From the NCBI GenBank assembly GCA_945874455.1, contig CAMCHO010000009.1, forward strand, positions 1-48,533: a stretch of DNA of 48,533 nt. Reading direction: 5' to 3'. The notes under the pieces were generated by a model that had not been told where the DNA came from, searched no databases, and saw only the letters and a list, made by a program, of their open reading frames with translations. Positions 22,947-34,377 of this stretch are shown here, in pieces (position 1 is the stretch's first letter; the number at the start of each line of letters is the position of its first letter). The position numbers were made by a program, and so were the translations under genes. This DNA is from Opitutus sp. GAS368 (GTDB lineage: Bacteria > Verrucomicrobiota > Verrucomicrobiia > Opitutales > Opitutaceae).

Positions 22947-25025
<2,079 letters not shown>

Positions 25026-25131
25026 GATGAGGGAGGGGTTTCGCGAGAAGATGTCGGCCGACTTCCCGTGGGCAAGCCCGCCCTCGACTCGCGCGGTAAA
25101 TTTCCCGCTGGGCGATCTCGCACCCGTTTTC

Positions 25132-25917
25132 TCAGCGAGACAGCCGCTGCTCATTCAGCGCCCAATCGTAGTCGGTAAACGTCACTTTCACCTCGCCCGG
25201 ATCAACCAACGCGTTGCGCTGGGCCTCGGGCAGAAACGTTTTCACATACGCGGCCAACGAGCCGGCCTGCTTGGTGAAATCATCGCCATACCACTTGAAA
25301 ATCGGCGAGAGGTGCAACGTACCGGTTTTCGCGTCGAAGCGATTTTTTTCGGGCGTTCCGAGGAACACCCGCGCTTGTTCATCCAGCTGGGTGTTCAGGC
25401 GGGCGCCGACATACGGCTCGCCGCGCAGCGGCGGACAACTCACCGCCGCACACACGAGCGCAAAATGGATGCGTGGCTCGCGGTAATTCACGCGGATCAT
25501 TTTGTGTTCCAGGTGATCGAGCGTGATGACCTGCCCGCCCTGGCGCACGATCAACTCGCTCCACGCCGCGCCTGGCAGCGTGCCGATGTCGCGAATGCTC
25601 TGCAGGGGATAGTGATTGATGATCAGGCGTAGCGTCTGCGCGTTATAGAGATTGAGGAGCAACGCGAGCCGGTCGACCTCGGGCCAGCGCGCAAATGCCG
25701 CGGCCGGCACGACGGCAATCTCCTGCAAGTAGGCGTCGAGTTCGACCGGATCGGCTTTCAGTTTGGCGTAATCGACGTTCGCGTTCTTTACGAAGGAGGT
25801 TAACACTCGGCCGAAACGCGCATGGGTCTGGTCGAATGCTTCGGCGCCACGCGCAACGAGCCCGGCCAAGGCGACCAACGACAGTGAGAGGATGAAACGA
25901 AAGCGCAGAGTAATCAT
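25132..25917 (-). CDS. exported DUF547 protein
   Basis: A 261-aa protein with a signal peptide (FRFILSLSLVALAGLVARGAEA). The mature part is DUF547: ANVDYAKLKADPVELDAYLQ, LALLLNLYNAQTLRLII, the conserved HKMIRVNYREPRIHFALVCAAVSCPPLRGE and NRFDAKTGTLHLSPIFKWYGDDF. The conserved CAAVSCPPLR segment with Cys and the LNLYNA motif suggest a papain-like or other hydrolytic active site, but the function is not established. It starts at ATG 25917. The gene is on the same strand as cstA with a 106-bp gap and may share its transcript. Confidence 0.9.
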   Translation of the reverse strand: MITLRFRFILSLSLVALAGLVARGAEAFDQTHARFGRVLTSFVKNANVDYAKLKADPVELDAYLQEIAVVPAAAFARWPEVDRLALLLNLYNAQTLRLIINHYPLQSIRDIGTLPGAAWSELIVRQGGQVITLDHLEHKMIRVNYREPRIHFALVCAAVSCPPLRGEPYVGARLNTQLDEQARVFLGTPEKNRFDAKTGTLHLSPIFKWYGDDFTKQAGSLAAYVKTFLPEAQRNALVDPGEVKVTFTDYDWALNEQRLSR

Positions 25918-26279
25918 TGGAGCAGCGGGTGGAACAGCGGGGCTGAGCCTAATCCCTCCGCCCGCAGTTAACCGCGACCCAGACACAATCGCAACCGACC
26001 GTTCACAGAAAAAGGGCGGGCGCGTGGTCTCCGTTCCCGAAAGCCGGGCGCTCTTCGGCGGTGTGCTCGTGAGCTTAATTCTTGGATTTTCAGGAGGTGA
26101 TTGAGGAGGACGCATGCGTTTACGCGTGCGGGCGAGTTTCGTTCCTTGGCAGTCGGCCTCGGCCGGTCGTAGGGCCGAGCCCCTCCACGCCCGCGCCTTC
26201 ACTCGCCAGCACTCGCCAGCAAGTAGGGAGCACACAGTGGCCACCCTTCCCCTGCTCCGGTGTGCTTTACCTGTCCCGC
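25918..26279. other. intergenic region between larA and the DUF547 gene
   Basis: A 362-bp stretch upstream of the DUF547 gene and downstream of larA. It contains a plus-strand AGGAGGTGAT at 26092-26101 followed by GAGGAGG and an ATG at 26114, a striking ribosome-binding-like arrangement. The frame that follows is Arg/Pro-rich and antisense to larA, so I do not call a gene. A tandem ACTCGCCAGC pair lies near 26200-26220. Confidence 0.45.
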
Positions 26280-27629
26280 CTACGCTTTCTCAGCCGGTCC
26301 GTCTGCGTCGGGGGGGCAGGCGATGGAAAGCGGTCCCTCAGGCAGGATGGCCGTGGCGATCGGGCCTCCGCCCAGCTTTGCAATCAGTTCCCGAATGGTT
26401 CCCACCGGGTCCTGGGTGTGTTCCGTACGGTTAAGGAGGCGGTCCTCGGGCGAGAGCTCCGAGAACAGGACGATACGTGCTTTTTCGAGACACTGCATCA
26501 GCGTCTGCACCTGCCACTGGTCGTGGCGTGTCACCTTAGTCGCCAAAATTTTGGAGTGGAGCTCATCGTTGTCGCAAGGCTCGGAAAGAATCTCCGCAAA
26601 CTCGCCTTCCATCGGGAGACCGTTGTTGCAGCGGCTCAATGCGAGGATCACCCCGCCCGGCTCCACAATGCGCGCGGCAGCGGATATCCCCTTCACCGTC
26701 TGATAGAAATTTTGATCCAGCGGAAAACCGGAGTTGGTGGTGATGACCAAAGGATAACGCCGAGGCACCTTTACGGTCGCCTCCGCCAGTGCTGCCGCGC
26801 AGCCCGCGTTGTGAGCCGCCACCAGCTCCCCGGCAAAGATGCCGGTGATCGCCTTGGAGTGGTTCAGCGTAACGTTGACAATGAAATGCGGCGGGAAGAG
26901 CGCCACCATCTCACGCGTCAGCGCCTGGAGGGGATTGTCGAAAATCCGCGCCCACGTCGCATGCGGATGCGCGATCAGCGAGGCCCGATGAAAGTGCCGC
27001 ACAGTCTCCAGCCCCGCGATACCGGGCACCAGAGCCTTGGATCCGCCGGAGAAGCCAGCGTAGAAATGGGGCTCAATAAAACCCGTGGTAATGCGCAGAT
27101 CCGCCTCCACCCACAACCGGTTCAACCAACACTCCCCACCGCACGACGAGGATCCCACATGGACAAGATTCGCGGCGTCTTGACAGTCGTGATTGACCAC
27201 GCGGAATCGTCCAGCCGCCTCTCCCAGCATCCGGACCATTTCCTCGCGCGTGGAGCCCCTGTGAGTCCCTGTGCCGATCAAAATCGTCACGCATGTGTCC
27301 GGCAAGCCCAGCTCCGCCGTGATCCACGGAAGCAAAAGATGATCGGGAACGGGTCGCGTGTGGTCGGCCACTGCAATGACCACCTTCGGCTCACGCAACT
27401 CGGAGCGTGCTTTCGCCAGGGCCCGCTTCGCAACCTCCACCAGCGGGAGGGATCCGATCGGATCGCGAACCGCGCTCTGGAAGGAGGTCTCTCCATGCTC
27501 CAGCGCTTTTGGATTAGCGGGCAAAAACACGGCGGGATCCATCCCTGGAATATCTAGGGGCAAATCGTAGCCTTCCTTGCCGTAAGCAAGTTTCACCGAG
27601 GTCCCCGCCATGTGCTGGTTAGTTTCCAT
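26280..27629 (-). CDS. larA: nickel-dependent lactate racemase family protein LarA
   Basis: A 449-aa enzyme that uses the nickel-pincer nucleotide cofactor to racemise lactate or a similar 2-hydroxyacid in the cytosol. Key residues are visible: DHTRP (89-93), GTGTHRG (119-125), EPHFYAGFSGGSKALVPG with H178 and K188, and H204 in VRHFH. The spacing H178-K188-H204 is the same as H174-K184-H200 of Lactiplantibacillus LarA, where the lysine binds the cofactor covalently and the histidines serve catalysis and nickel. The cofactor genes larE, larB and larC are 1.7 kb away on the other strand. Related LarA homologues act on other hydroxyacids, so the substrate is not certain. Confidence 0.92.
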   Translation of the reverse strand: METNQHMAGTSVKLAYGKEGYDLPLDIPGMDPAVFLPANPKALEHGETSFQSAVRDPIGSLPLVEVAKRALAKARSELREPKVVIAVADHTRPVPDHLLLPWITAELGLPDTCVTILIGTGTHRGSTREEMVRMLGEAAGRFRVVNHDCQDAANLVHVGSSSCGGECWLNRLWVEADLRITTGFIEPHFYAGFSGGSKALVPGIAGLETVRHFHRASLIAHPHATWARIFDNPLQALTREMVALFPPHFIVNVTLNHSKAITGIFAGELVAAHNAGCAAALAEATVKVPRRYPLVITTNSGFPLDQNFYQTVKGISAAARIVEPGGVILALSRCNNGLPMEGEFAEILSEPCDNDELHSKILATKVTRHDQWQVQTLMQCLEKARIVLFSELSPEDRLLNRTEHTQDPVGTIRELIAKLGGGPIATAILPEGPLSIACPPDADGPAEKA

Positions 27630-27758
27630 TTTCAGAGTGTCCTAGGTTAGAATTCAAACGTCCGTTCGTGCTCGTTTCACCTCGCAGATCCGGCGCCTCT
27701 GCCCGCCAAGTGCGTTGGCGAGCGGGCGGCGAAACACGCGACAATGACGCGTGCACGA

Positions 27759-29033
27759 CTACTGGGTAAGCCCCGCCAACTTGGTGTTGGTCTCTTGGAG
27801 CCGGCGCGAGAGCACCCGCAGCATATTGAGCGCAATCTCCGGGCTGTCCTTAATCAGCTTGAGGAAGGTATCTCGGTCGATCGAGAGAAAGTGCGTGGCC
27901 TTGCTCGCCACAACCTTCGCCGAGGCCACCGCGTGCGGATCCAAAATGCTCATTTCTCCGAAAACCTGACCCTTGCCTAGCTTGGTCACCTCGACCTCGT
28001 TGTGCAGGACATCAACCGCGCCCTCGCACACAACATACAGGTTCGCGTTCGGCTTGCCCTGCTCAAGAATAGTGGCACCGCTCTCCACGCGGAGCTCCTG
28101 CAACAGCGGCGCAATCTTGGCCAGTAACTCGTCCGGAGTGCTTGCGAAATAATCCGTGGACTTCAGCAGGAGAACCTTGCGAAACACCGAGAGAGCCTTG
28201 CCATCATCCGCGAACTGATCCGCGGTCAGCTTGTCAACCTTGGCGGCGCGGGCGATGTCGATGACACCCTCTAAAACGTAACCGGGCTTGAACCCGAAGT
28301 TCTTGATCTCAGGCCTCGACATGACGCCACTGAGTACCAGTACCGTCTCAAGCTGGGACTCGATTCCCACCAGGATGTCGGTGTCCATCCGGTCGCCGAT
28401 CATCACCCCGTCCTTTGCCTCGGCGCCGATGGCGTCCAGGGCCAGACGCATCATGAGCGGGTTGGGCTTCCCGATATAGTAGGCCTTTTTACCGGTGGTG
28501 ATTTCCAGCACCGAGGCGAGTGCCCCCGCGCTCGGGGCCATATGCCCCTCCACAGGGTAGAATGCGTCGGGGTTGGTCACAATTAAGTGGGCACCCTTGT
28601 TGACCAACTTCGAGGCATGCTCAAGGACCTGATAGCGATAGTTCGGCGTACGCCCCATCACCACGTAGTCGGGGTTCGAATCGTTCATCGAGTAGCCCGC
28701 TTCATAGAGCGCCCCCATCAACGCCGGCTCACCAATCACATAGGCGGTCCCCTTGGGCTTCTGACGCGCAAGATAGCGGGCTGTCGCCAGCGCGGACGTG
28801 AAGAAGTGCTTGGGATCCACCTCGATCCCCATCCGATACAGCTTCTCGCTGAGCTCTCGGGGCGTTCTGGTGCTGTCGTTGGTCAGAAACAGGAAGTTCT
28901 TGTTCGCCTTGAGCCACTCCACAAACTGGAGGACGCCCGGCAGCAACTGGTTCCCGCGGTAGAGGACGCCGTCCATGTCGCAAACGAAGACTTTCTTGGC
29001 GAGCAGGCTATCGAGATTGGGTGTCTGATTCAT
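27759..29033 (-). CDS. NagD-like HAD phosphatase fused to a cyclic-nucleotide-binding domain
   Basis: A 424-aa two-domain protein. Residues 1-270 are a HAD class IIA (NagD/PGP-like) hydrolase: DMDGVLYRG with nucleophile D19 and acid D21, FLTNDSTRTP, IGKPNP with K189 and GDRMDTDI (213-220). After a helical linker (SVFRKVLLLKSTDYFASTPDELL) comes a cNMP-type beta barrel at about 312-400, including SGATILEQG, LYVVCEGAVDVL, GQVFGEMSIL and a C-terminal helix. The arginine that normally holds the cyclic phosphate after FGE is absent (HAVASAKV), so cAMP binding is doubtful. Placed between larA and larE, it may dephosphorylate a cofactor by-product or a 2-phospho acid. ATG 29033 gives the natural HAD start. 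Confidence 0.88.
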   Translation of the reverse strand: MNQTPNLDSLLAKKVFVCDMDGVLYRGNQLLPGVLQFVEWLKANKNFLFLTNDSTRTPRELSEKLYRMGIEVDPKHFFTSALATARYLARQKPKGTAYVIGEPALMGALYEAGYSMNDSNPDYVVMGRTPNYRYQVLEHASKLVNKGAHLIVTNPDAFYPVEGHMAPSAGALASVLEITTGKKAYYIGKPNPLMMRLALDAIGAEAKDGVMIGDRMDTDILVGIESQLETVLVLSGVMSRPEIKNFGFKPGYVLEGVIDIARAAKVDKLTADQFADDGKALSVFRKVLLLKSTDYFASTPDELLAKIAPLLQELRVESGATILEQGKPNANLYVVCEGAVDVLHNEVEVTKLGKGQVFGEMSILDPHAVASAKVVASKATHFLSIDRDTFLKLIKDSPEIALNMLRVLSRRLQETNTKLAGLTQ

Positions 29034-29363
29034 CGGAAGTGTTTGGATTTTGCTAAATAAAGAAGTAAGCCATGCAGAATTTTCGGGTGGGCAACCTGAA
29101 TCTTGGTAAATTTTGGGTGTCGAGTGCAGGGCACGGTCTTTCGTGTTGAGGGCAAGGATTGACTCCGGTGGCGAGGAGGACGCGCAGGCCGGCGGTGGGA
29201 GGGAAGTGGAGTCGTTCGCGGATTTCCGGGCGGGAAACACCGGGCAAATGCTCCGGCCGCAACGCACACGGGGCGTTGCGCCGGAGGGCGAGCCTGGCGT
29301 GCAGGGCAGGCCGCGGCATTTTATTTTGACTTCAGTTCGGGCCTGCGAATCTTTCGGGAATTA
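29034..29363. other. divergent promoter region of the lar locus
   Basis: A 330-bp gap between the divergent HAD gene and larE. No protein-like frame is present. The left 80 bp is more A/T-rich than the surroundings, including GCTAAATAAAGAAGT, and is the likeliest place for the minus-strand promoter. The larE ATG lies in GGGAATTAATGG without a clear ribosome binding site. Confidence 0.45.
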
Positions 29364-30215
29364 ATGGTCGATGTCCTTGTCCCAATCGGAAGCTTGTCGG
29401 CGAAAGAAGCCGCGCTGCGCGCGTCGCTGCGGCCGAAGCTGGCGCTGGGCTTGATCGTGGCCTTCTCCGGCGGCGTGGATAGCTCGTTTCTCCTTTGGAT
29501 CGCGGAGCAGGAGCGAAGGCGCCACGGCGGGAAGCTGCTGGCCGTCACTGCGGTGAGCGCGAGCCTCGCGCAAGTGGAGCGGGAGGACGCGACGCGATTG
29601 GCCGCCGAGCTCGGAGTCGAGCACCGCTGGGAAAACAGCCTCGAGCTGTCGAATCCCGACTATGCGAAAAACGACTTGTCGCGTTGCTACCATTGCAAGA
29701 CCGAGCTTTTCCGGCTGAGCCATGCGCTCGCCGGCAGCCTCGGCTATGCCTTCATCGCTTACGGTTACAATGCGTCGGATCGCGGTGATTTTCGCCCGGG
29801 CCGGCAGGCCGCGTTGGAGCAGGGCATCGTCGCGCCGCTCGATGAGGCCGAGCTGGCGAAGGAGGACATCCGCGCACTCATGCGCTTACACCAGATTCCC
29901 TTTTCCGAAAAAGCCGCGAGCCCGTGCCTCAGTTCGCGGTTGATGACCGGAGTCGCCGTCACCCCCCAGCGGCTGCGCGACGTCGAGGATTGCGAGGCGA
30001 TTTTGCGCCGCGCCGGGTTGGATGCATTCCGGGTTCGGTTGCACGAACACGCCGGCGTGCAATGGCTGCGGCTGGAGGTAAACCCGGCGGAGATGAGCAA
30101 GGCCCTGTCCGTCCGCGAAGAACTTCACCAGCTGGCGCGACCGCGTGGTTATGCGTGGGTGACCCTCGACCTTGGCGGCTACCGCATGGGCGGCGGCACG
30201 GTGCGCTCCAGCTGA
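29364..30215 (+). CDS. larE: LarE, ATP-dependent sulfur transferase for the Ni-pincer cofactor
   Basis: A 283-aa PP-loop enzyme that adenylates the pyridinium dicarboxylate intermediate and donates sulfur to it. The PP-loop is FSGGVDSSF (residues 34-42). RCYHCKTELF has C108 and C111. SPCLSSR places C188 where Lactiplantibacillus LarE has its sacrificial C176. Other members use extra cysteines to hold a [4Fe-4S] cluster that carries the sulfur; the presence of three cysteines (108, 111, 188) fits that type but does not prove it. It is first of the plus-strand larE-larB-larC operon, 4 bp before larB. Confidence 0.93.
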   Translation: MVDVLVPIGSLSAKEAALRASLRPKLALGLIVAFSGGVDSSFLLWIAEQERRRHGGKLLAVTAVSASLAQVEREDATRLAAELGVEHRWENSLELSNPDYAKNDLSRCYHCKTELFRLSHALAGSLGYAFIAYGYNASDRGDFRPGRQAALEQGIVAPLDEAELAKEDIRALMRLHQIPFSEKAASPCLSSRLMTGVAVTPQRLRDVEDCEAILRRAGLDAFRVRLHEHAGVQWLRLEVNPAEMSKALSVREELHQLARPRGYAWVTLDLGGYRMGGGTVRSS

Positions 30216-30219
30216 TCCG

Positions 30220-31008
30220 ATGAACGAGGACGAAATCCGCACCTTGTTGGAAGGTCTGGCGGCCGGGGCCGTGCAGCCGGCAGCGGCGTTGCAGCGCTTG
30301 AAAAGCGGTCCGTTCCGCGAGGGGAATCTCGGGTTCGCGCAGGTGGATCACCACCGGAGGCTGCGGCAGGGCTTGGGCGAAGTCATCTTCGGCGAGAGCA
30401 AGACGCTGGAGCAAATCCGCGCCATTGCCGCGGAAGCGGGCGGTGGCGGGGCGCCCGTGCTGATCACTCGGCTGCAGCCGGAAAAAGTCGCAGGCTTGAT
30501 CGCCGCATTTCCCGCCGGCCGGGCAAATGCCCCCGCGCGGACGTTCATCCTCAACGCACCCCCGATCTCCGCGGCCGGAACAGATCTGCCGCACGTGGCC
30601 ATCGTAACGGCCGGCACGAGCGATCTGTTTGTCGCGGAAGAGGCGGCCGAGGTCTGCATCGCCATGGGCGTGCCGTGCGAGCGTTACTACGACATCGGCG
30701 TGGCGGGGATTCACCGTCTCCTCCAACGGGCTGACAAGCTTCAGGCGGCGACCGCCTTGGTCGTCGTCGCGGGCATGGAAGGTGCGCTCCCCAGCGTCGT
30801 CGCCGGATTGCTGGGCCGGCCGGTCTTCGCCGTGCCGACAAGCGTGGGCTACGGGGCCAGCTTCGGAGGCGTGAGCGCCTTGCTGTCGATGTTGAACTCC
30901 TGCGCCCCCGGCGTGAGCGTGGTGAACATCGACAATGGTTTTTCCGCCGCCTTCGCCGCTTGTCAGGTCGTGCGCGCGGTGCGGGCGGCCGGCGCCAACT
31001 CCCGATGA
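30220..31008 (+). CDS. larB: LarB, carboxylase/hydrolase for the Ni-pincer cofactor
   Basis: A 262-aa homologue of LarB (PurE-like fold), which carboxylates nicotinate adenine dinucleotide and hydrolyses its phosphoanhydride. Landmarks: LGFAQVDHHRRLRQGLGEVIFGESKT, IVTAGTSDLFVAEEA, GVPCERYYDIGVAGIHRLL, VVVAGMEGALPSVVAGLLGRPV and PTSVGYGASFGGVSALL, the last two typical of the PurE-type active site. It starts 4 bp after larE and its stop overlaps the larC start as ATGA. Confidence 0.94.
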   Translation: MNEDEIRTLLEGLAAGAVQPAAALQRLKSGPFREGNLGFAQVDHHRRLRQGLGEVIFGESKTLEQIRAIAAEAGGGGAPVLITRLQPEKVAGLIAAFPAGRANAPARTFILNAPPISAAGTDLPHVAIVTAGTSDLFVAEEAAEVCIAMGVPCERYYDIGVAGIHRLLQRADKLQAATALVVVAGMEGALPSVVAGLLGRPVFAVPTSVGYGASFGGVSALLSMLNSCAPGVSVVNIDNGFSAAFAACQVVRAVRAAGANSR

Positions 31009-32309
31009 GCCGAATACTTTTCCTGGACAGCGTCGCTGGTGTCGCCGGCGACATGTTCGCGGCCGCGTTTGTGGATGCCGGGCTGGTGACTGCGGCCGAA
31101 CTCGCGGCGCTCCCCGCGCAACTCGGATTCAATTCCGTGGAAATCTCCGCTCGCGCCGTCACCAAGGCAACGATGCGCGCCACCCATCTCAGCGTGACCT
31201 CCCGGTCCGACCGCGTGCCTCACTCCCTCAGTCATGCCCACGCCGCGCCGGCTCACGCACACCACGCGCATGAGCCTCACGCGCACGAAACATCTCCCGA
31301 GAGCGACAGCGAGTCGCACCTCGTCGTGGAGGCCGGGGCGGATCACGCGCACACCCATTACGCCGACATCGATCGGTTGATTGGCGGTTGCCCCCTGGCC
31401 GCCCCCGTGCGTGCCCGGGCGCAAATGATCTTTCGCCTGCTGGCCGAGGCGGAGGCGGCCGCCCATGGCATGGCGGTGGAGGACGTGGCGTTTCACGAAG
31501 TCGGCTCGATCGATTCGATCATGGATGTGGTCATGGCCGCTTATTGCATCGAGAAGCTGGGCCCGGCGCGGTACTGCGCCACCCCGATCCGTCCCGGACG
31601 CGGTTTCATCACGATGGCCCACGGCACGCATCCCGTGCCGCCGCCCGCGAGCGCGCGCCTGCTGGCCGACCTGCCCATCGCCGCCACGCCGGCCGCGATC
31701 ACGCGCACCAACGTGGAACTGTCCACGCCAACGGGCATCGCCATCCTCAAATCGCTCGCGCCCGAATTTCTCGCCGAGGTTCCCGCCGGGACGATCCGTC
31801 AACAGGGTTTGGGCGCGGGTACGATGGACTTGGGCTCGTTTCCCAATGTGTTTCGCCTGATCGTGCTCGACGCCAATCCGAGTCCGGGCGCCACCCACGC
31901 CTATGAAGCAGATCAGGTGGTCGAGATTGTCAGCAATATCGACGACGACTCCGCGGAGCACATCGCGTGGCTCGCGGAGCAGTTGCTCGCCCGCGGCGCG
32001 CTCGACGTCTGGCTCACGCCCGCGATGGGCAAGAAGGGCCGGCCGCTGACCTGCTTGTCGGTTCTGGCGCAGGCCGCCGATTGGTCAGCCTACGCGGACT
32101 GGCTGCTGCGAAACAGCACGACCTTTGGGCTGAGATATCGCACGTGGGATCGCTTGAAGCTTGCGCGGCGCTTCGAACGGCGCGCGGTCGCCGGCGGAGA
32201 AATTACGTACAAGGTGGGCCTCACGACGACGGGCGAAGTGTTGAAGGACAAGCCCGAGTTCGACGAGCTGCGTGTGCACTGGGAGCAACGCAGTAGCGAC
32301 CGGAAGTAG
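31005..32309 (+). CDS. larC: LarC, nickel insertase, single open frame
   Basis: A 434-aa protein that inserts nickel into the pincer nucleotide in a CTP-dependent reaction. It begins ILFLDSVAGVAGDMFAAAFVDAG, the family signature. Residues 73-119 form a His-rich metal-handling insert with more than ten histidines. FHEVGSIDSIMDVV, GTHPVPPPA, ELSTPTGIAIL and the C-terminal ANIDDDSAEH-like NIDDDSAEHIAWL are intact. In some lactobacilli the two halves (LarC1, LarC2) need a ribosomal frameshift; here they are one continuous frame. Start overlaps larB by ATGA. It ends the cofactor operon. Confidence 0.93.
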   Translation: MSRILFLDSVAGVAGDMFAAAFVDAGLVTAAELAALPAQLGFNSVEISARAVTKATMRATHLSVTSRSDRVPHSLSHAHAAPAHAHHAHEPHAHETSPESDSESHLVVEAGADHAHTHYADIDRLIGGCPLAAPVRARAQMIFRLLAEAEAAAHGMAVEDVAFHEVGSIDSIMDVVMAAYCIEKLGPARYCATPIRPGRGFITMAHGTHPVPPPASARLLADLPIAATPAAITRTNVELSTPTGIAILKSLAPEFLAEVPAGTIRQQGLGAGTMDLGSFPNVFRLIVLDANPSPGATHAYEADQVVEIVSNIDDDSAEHIAWLAEQLLARGALDVWLTPAMGKKGRPLTCLSVLAQAADWSAYADWLLRNSTTFGLRYRTWDRLKLARRFERRAVAGGEITYKVGLTTTGEVLKDKPEFDELRVHWEQRSSDRK

Positions 32310-33256: not shown

Positions 33257-33475
33257 CTGACCGACTTCTTCTCTGAAACCACCAATGCCCTCTCCGCAGG
33301 TTTCAATTCAAAGATCCGAGTCATCACGTCAGACTCACAGGGCTTCCGCCGTTTCGCGCACCTTCGCGCGCGCATCCTCGTTCACTGCGGCACACTCAGC
33401 TTGGTGACGGATTTGCCCCGTCCCTCACCGGGCTGCCACGGAGAAACCGTAACAACTATTTTTACACCGGCGTGA
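33257..33475 (+). pseudogene. C-terminal remnant of an ISL3-family transposase
   Basis: The frame reads RLTDFFSETTNALSAGFNSK, then QGFRRFAHLRARILVHCGTLSL. This corresponds to the conserved end of ISL3 transposases (TNALAEGLNSKIQ ... ARGFRNFANYRTRILFFCGKL), which holds the last catalytic glutamate; here the E of EG(L/F)NSK is replaced by A-G, so catalysis would be lost. Upstream the frame is closed by a stop near 33240, and the basic stretch at 33180-33250 in another frame may be more of the same protein. It ends just inside the AEC transporter start. Confidence 0.65.
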
Positions 33476-34377
33476 CGAACTTCATTCTTATCGCGGTATG
33501 CATGCTGGCAGGGATGTTGTTACGGAGATTCGGCACCCTCCCAGCGGATGCACACAAGGGCGTCAATGCGTGGCTCATCTACCTCGCAATGCCCGCAATT
33601 TCATTCAAACACCTCCCCTACGTGGTGTGGAGCCCGGAGCTCTTGGTTCCCATCCTCGTCCCGCTGCTCGTGTTCGTCGCAGGATTGGCGTACGTAAAAC
33701 TGTACGCGAAAATTAATTCCATCGCCCCGGCGACGACCGGCGGTCTGATCCTCATGGCTGGCCTCGGCAACACCGGCTTCGTCGGGCTCCCCCTCGTGTC
33801 CGCTTACTTTGGAGAACTCAACATGGGGACCGCGGTCATCTGCGATCAAGTGACGGTCCTCTTGGTCTCCACGCTCGGTGCTGCGATCGCGATCAAAGCG
33901 TCAGGTGCGAAAACGGTGGAGCTATCGGATATCCTGAAAAAAGTTCTCCGCTTCCCCCCTCTGATCGGCTGCCTGCTGGCGCTCACCGTGCCTCGATGGG
34001 TGGACATTTCGCCCGCGGCGCCCTTGTTCCAAGCGGTGGCAGCAACGACGGCACCTCTAGCCCTATTTTCCATCGGCCTGCAGCTGAGGCTGGAGGGGTG
34101 GACGCAGCAGGCCGGGGTCGTCGGCTCGGTTTTAGCGTACAAACTGGTCCTTGCGCCCGCGATCGTCCTTGCGGCGCTCATGTTTTTTCAGGTGAAAGGA
34201 GCCACCGCCGAGATTAGTCTCTTTCAAATGGGCATGCCGTCGCTCCTCTCTGCGGCGGTGGTGGCCAGCGAGTACAACCTTAATCCCCCCCTCATGAATA
34301 GGATTGCGGGCATCGGGATTGTGGCGGGCCTAGGCACTTCGTACCTGTGGTTTTTGGCTACCAAGCTGCTGGCTTAG
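33472..34377 (+). CDS. AEC-family (auxin efflux carrier-like) transporter
   Basis: A 301-aa permease with about ten hydrophobic segments in two halves, starting at GTG 33472. Landmarks are GMLLRRFGTLPADAHKGVNAWLIYLAMPA, GGLILMAGLGNTGFVGLPLVSAYFG, APLALFSIGLQLRLEG, YKLVLAPAIV and FQMGMPSLLSAAVVASEYNL. Bacterial AEC proteins such as MdcF and MleP move malonate, malate or other organic acids. It follows the lar operon on the same strand after a stretch of transposase remnants. Moving lactate or another 2-hydroxyacid would fit that context, as inference only. Confidence 0.88.
   Translation: MTNFILIAVCMLAGMLLRRFGTLPADAHKGVNAWLIYLAMPAISFKHLPYVVWSPELLVPILVPLLVFVAGLAYVKLYAKINSIAPATTGGLILMAGLGNTGFVGLPLVSAYFGELNMGTAVICDQVTVLLVSTLGAAIAIKASGAKTVELSDILKKVLRFPPLIGCLLALTVPRWVDISPAAPLFQAVAATTAPLALFSIGLQLRLEGWTQQAGVVGSVLAYKLVLAPAIVLAALMFFQVKGATAEISLFQMGMPSLLSAAVVASEYNLNPPLMNRIAGIGIVAGLGTSYLWFLATKLLA

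Follow-up and report, generated by a model that had tools for sequence, protein, structure and literature searches.

The gene analysed here lies on the minus strand of a 48,533-nucleotide stretch of the genome of Opitutus sp. GAS368 (the window) and is an open frame without stop, whose translation gives a product of 424 aa. As shown in Table 1, it is located 129 bp upstream of a larA homolog, whose strand it shares, and is separated by 330 bp from the divergently oriented genes larE, larB and larC, in agreement with the first-pass annotation of this DNA, which had placed it between larA and larE. The LarA homolog reached 404 bits with the NCBIfam lactate racemase equivalog and, since this score is below the cut-off of 460, lactate is its likely rather than its certain substrate as judged from the sequence. 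The spacer between the fusion gene and larA contains a GC-rich stem-loop without a U-tract and a sigma-70 scan of positions 26100-29600 gave no promoter-like site, so that co-transcription of the two genes is neither shown nor excluded. The lar region is flanked by genes for a CstA carbon-starvation transporter (22947-25154) and for an AEC-type membrane transporter (33472-34377), both of which might move pyruvate or hydroxy acids.

Table 1. Features of the fusion gene, of its lar neighbourhood in the window and of related barrel proteins.
Feature	Position	Strand	Basis
larA homolog, downstream of the fusion	26280..27629	-	profiles
Fusion-larA intergenic region, GC-rich stem-loop, no U-tract	27630..27758	-	folding z -1.9; no terminator listed
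HAD-IIA phosphatase/cNMP-type barrel fusion, 424 aa	27759..29033	-	ORF, Pfam, NagD structure alignment
Cyclic-nucleotide-binding-type barrel and C-terminal helix, residues 290-424	27762..28166	-	PF00027, pLDDT 89, Foldseek PKG I
Phosphate-binding-cassette region, residues 357-376, Arg to Ala and one inserted residue	27906..27965	-	alignment
Point matching the interruption of the sister copy, after codon 356, native GGGTCAG	27965..27966	.	sister-copy comparison
HAD-IIA (NagD-type) half, residues 1-262, four HAD motifs	28248..29033	-	profiles, 2c4n alignment, dN/dS 0.07 versus sister copy
Divergent intergenic region, fusion/larE	29034..29363	.	
larE	29364..30215	+	TIGR00268 1.7e-69
larB	30220..31008	+	NF033503 1.4e-79
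larC, LarC1 and LarC2 domains	31005..32309	+	TIGR00299, NF052512
Stand-alone barrel proteins, cyanobacterial genomes	L123:2782-3180, L124:3492-3890, L125:2963-3361		

In the 424-aa protein, Pfam recognised Hydrolase_6 (2.5e-27, residues 16-114), Hydrolase_like (1.8e-19, residues 187-259) and cNMP_binding (3.6e-15, residues 315-396), all above the gathering cut-offs, which together with the uninterrupted frame confirms the earlier description of the gene as a HAD phosphatase joined to a cNMP-type domain. E. coli NagD (2c4n) aligns with residues 14-260 over both core and cap (E 2.3e-54), and the four HAD motifs could be matched to this structure: motif I (DxDG, with the nucleophile and the acid/base Asp) is present as DMDGVL at residues 19-24, and the T/S of motif II, the Lys of motif III and the Asp of motif IV are found in LTND, GKPNP and GDRMDTD, respectively. 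The NagD-like half thus retains all catalytic residues, as had been proposed. It passed the HAD-IIA subfamily profile TIGR01460 with 139.2 bits (cut-off 100.15), stayed with 217.8 bits below the cut-off of 368 of the E. coli-type NagD equivalog NF007762, and reached 125 bits with TIGR01452, the profile of PGP/PDXP enzymes. Its nearest relatives, 54-59% identical over residues 7-262, are stand-alone phosphatases from the window's own phylum and from Coleofasciculus, and in the tree the fusion branches beside a clade of such stand-alone enzymes with a support of 0.99. The neighbours of the closest of these relatives varied, and no lar genes were present near them in the loci inspected. Among the characterised HAD-IIA enzymes, E. 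coli NagD acts on UMP, GMP, AMP and CMP (PMC5080769) and the B. subtilis enzyme YutF is a 5'-nucleotidase of broad specificity (PMC5132288).

The structure of the C-terminal domain and its residue counts were derived from an alignment of the barrel only, a joint full-length alignment of HAD half and barrel having been left unused as its barrel rows were misplaced in the HAD half. AlphaFold2 gave a confident model (mean pLDDT 89.4), in which a long C-terminal helix follows the barrel, and a Foldseek search with this model gave PKG I as the best match (E 8.6e-13), along with CRP/GlxR and other cyclic-nucleotide domains; the fold profile PF00027 was passed with 56.1 bits against a cut-off of 27.5. 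The cassette reads FGEMSILDPHAVASAKV and has an Ala, with one extra residue beside it, where Arg is found in 21 of 21 aligned bacterial relatives, so that the earlier claim of a barrel devoid of the arginine that binds the cyclic phosphate proved correct. The Gly-Glu in front of the lost Arg is kept (FGE), this Glu being the cassette residue that binds the ribose. According to model and alignment, the barrel fold is retained and its phosphate anchor is gone. Since the Arg that holds the cyclic phosphate is missing, the barrel is in all likelihood insensitive to cAMP and cGMP. Some CRP-family barrels sense other ligands, and loss of the Arg is compatible with a different ligand. Of the bacterial matches to the barrel, the best was to a small stand-alone protein of cyanobacterial origin (35-36% identical). 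Small proteins of this kind, about 160-180 aa long and encoded in cyanobacterial genomes, were the nearest relatives of the barrel that the searches gave; they are 32-36% identical and have kept the Arg.

Searches with the full-length protein covered 57 relatives, 398 genomes from the phylum to which an Alphaproteobacteria-titled locus belongs, and 244 and 201 genomes from those of a cyanobacterial and a Chloroflexi-titled locus, respectively; the HAD half was searched in 387 genomes belonging to the same phylum as the window. In a total of more than 1,200 genomes, the fusion was found only in the window genome and in one congener, an Opitutae MAG (G008, locus L066; the sister species); from each genome the best few candidates were scored and some long frames were inspected, so that a fusion with a very divergent barrel could escape. 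No plasmid record covers 80% of the fusion query, and no description of a HAD-cNMP fusion was found in the open-access literature. The domain pairing is therefore as unusual as had been supposed: known parts in a rare architecture. As for candidates that were rejected, L076, whose match span seemed to be full length, consists of two separate barrel matches, and long frames in L047, L013 and L091-L093 showed no barrel match beside the HAD match. The fusion is one inherited event.

The copy of the sister species is 97% identical to that of the window through codon 356. There, after the native GGGTCAG, a different sequence begins and the frame ends seven codons later, at the contig edge; the interruption falls before the phosphate-binding cassette, and the second half of the barrel is absent as assembled. 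This end sequence recurs, each time after GGTCAG, in another contig of the sister species, in contig C104 of the window genome and in two contigs of genome G005. The five GGTCAG junctions, in three genomes of the genus, are at L066:8999-9140 and at about position 1501 of L139, 1133 of L136, 219 of L137 and 1501 of L140. Because the junctions repeat after GGTCAG, the repeated end suggests an insertion sequence with a preferred target, possibly of IS110 type. Read in reverse, it gives a 43-residue C-terminal tail that, by eye, we take to resemble those of IS110-family transposases, and a Pfam search with this tail gave no identification. That the interruption is an assembly artefact is disfavoured and a real insertion favoured, since GGTCAG adjoins this same end five times, in three genomes. 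The window also has, between larA and a DUF547 gene (26071-26171), a degraded remnant of the insertion-sequence end, 73% identical to it, and in the sister species there is one at the corresponding position (C68:211-327); debris of mobile elements borders the lar region.

Between the two copies, dN/dS was 0.07 for the HAD half (codons 1-262; 4 nonsynonymous and 16 synonymous substitutions) and 0.40 for the comparable part of the barrel (codons 263-356; 9 nonsynonymous and 7 synonymous), a difference that rests on 36 substitutions (Fisher p = 0.038) and that relaxation after the insertion in the sister species could explain. For larE, larB and larC, the values between the two species were 0.16, 0.07 and 0.09, respectively, and these genes are intact in the sister species despite its broken barrel. 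The condition in which the sister copy is found speaks against a barrel of much importance for sensing. The proposal that the barrel senses a nucleotide-like cofactor precursor thus loses ground, as the barrel is the less constrained half of the protein and, in the sister species, is cut by an insertion. In the window, the reading frame runs through the whole barrel, the fold of which is confidently predicted, and the barrel may still be used there.

Of nine congeners, the same two, the window genome and the sister species, have both the fusion and larE, and searches of the other seven gave neither gene; this shared presence fits a joint gain but is a single event. The order fusion, larE, larB, larC is identical in both species. 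In unrelated genomes no recurrent linkage to lar genes was found, the searches having given the fusion in one lineage only. The larEBC locus of genome G040, which belongs to another family of the same taxonomic order, contains no such HAD, and a phosphatase is not mentioned in the main text of a survey of larA gene contexts (PMC7583248). The first-pass annotation had proposed a role with the Ni-pincer cofactor and, as a check, an architecture search for fusions and their neighbours. This search revealed a lar order common to both carriers, although within a single lineage and without recurrent linkage. The co-occurrence of fusion and larE speaks weakly for the proposed role, but it traces back to one event, the nearest HAD relatives lie away from lar genes in the loci inspected and the HAD is missing from the G040 locus. 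The comparative evidence hence lends little support to a role with the cofactor.

We consider it probable, on the strength of sequence comparisons, that the gene encodes a broad-specificity phosphatase with a degenerate barrel, which would serve at most as an oligomerisation or pseudo-sensor module. By analogy with its family, the NagD/UmpH-type (HAD-IIA) part would be a Mg-dependent phosphatase that hydrolyses nucleoside monophosphates and other small phosphoesters. The C-terminal barrel of cAMP/cGMP fold would have been gained in one genus; it keeps its fold without the Arg for the cyclic phosphate, cyclic-nucleotide binding presumably having been lost, and dimerisation of the enzyme could still be brought about by the long C-terminal helix. 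The barrel would then be accessory, with selection preserving the HAD half and the sister species having probably lost the rest of the barrel to the insertion sequence.

The alternative that survives best, although unlikely, is that the phosphatase is a chance neighbour, acquired in or with an insertion-sequence-rich lar island, without a link to the pathway and with a decaying barrel. The insertion-sequence ends in the sister copy and, as a relic, by larA in both genomes would fit such an origin, as would the absence of the lar genes and the fusion from the other congeners and the lower constraint on the barrel part. However, purifying selection on the HAD half is strong, which indicates that this half does something, and the two species share the arrangement fusion, larE, larB, larC. 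With a lower probability still, the HAD half could repair metabolites linked to lactate, clearing 2-phospho-L-lactate and similar damaged phosphates. This compound is a side product of pyruvate kinase acting on L-lactate and would matter when the cell interconverts and consumes lactate. The neighbouring LarA homolog agrees with this idea, and so does mammalian PGP, a HAD-IIA enzyme that dephosphorylates 2-phospho-L-lactate, 4-phosphoerythronate and 2-phosphoglycolate (PMC9652372). Nevertheless, the profile scores given above put the HAD half closer to NagD than to PGP/PDXP, and its stand-alone relatives are unlinked to lactate genes in the loci inspected.

We give little credence to an enzyme linked to the Lar pathway itself, in which the phosphatase would remove phosphates of the pathway and the barrel would sense a nucleotide-like precursor. 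The substrates would be AMP from LarB and LarE, the cytidine nucleotide of LarC and phosphorylated off-pathway pyridinium mononucleotides. LarB and LarE release AMP and LarC uses CTP (PMC11796402), and both AMP and CMP are substrates of NagD (PMC5080769), which, together with the position beside larA on its strand and the presence with larE in the same congeners, speaks for this alternative. Against it stand the single evolutionary event, the G040 locus without such a HAD, the nearest HAD relatives away from lar genes in the loci inspected, the survey whose main text is silent on a phosphatase, and the broken barrel of a sister species in which larE, larB and larC remain intact and constrained. 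It is hardly credible that the barrel was repurposed for a nucleotide-like Ni-pincer precursor or another non-cyclic ligand and gates a phosphatase that clears or salvages Lar mononucleotides, which, if true, would place a ligand-switched quality-control enzyme for the cofactor next to larA.

The phosphatase with a degenerate barrel that we favour offers a clear case in which a cyclic-nucleotide-fold barrel without its ligand anchor has become, within one genus, part of a metabolic phosphatase, and in which an insertion has broken the sister copy. If the barrel binds something else, this would be a new ligand for the cyclic-nucleotide fold, and the protein would be the first regulated HAD-IIA phosphatase of such kind known to us. 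The main caution at present is that gene position alone is a poor guide to a role with the cofactor.

E. coli NagD/UmpH and B. subtilis YutF share with the fusion the whole HAD-IIA core, the cap and the catalytic motifs, but E. coli NagD has 250 aa and neither of these matched structures reaches into the barrel. The barrel is also lacking in the stand-alone HAD-IIA phosphatases from Coleofasciculus and from the window's phylum. PKG/PKA, CRP/GlxR and the small bacterial cNMP proteins have the fold, the Gly-Glu of the cassette and the C-terminal helix in common with the barrel, whereas in the fusion the Arg of the cassette is replaced by Ala and one residue is inserted. The mycobacterial Pat acetyltransferase and the family 2B encapsulins have other partner domains and differ from the fusion, whose barrel is without the phosphate-binding Arg; these bacterial fusions likewise combine a barrel of cNMP type with an unrelated protein, and their models NF058543 and NF041163 both match the barrel of the fusion.
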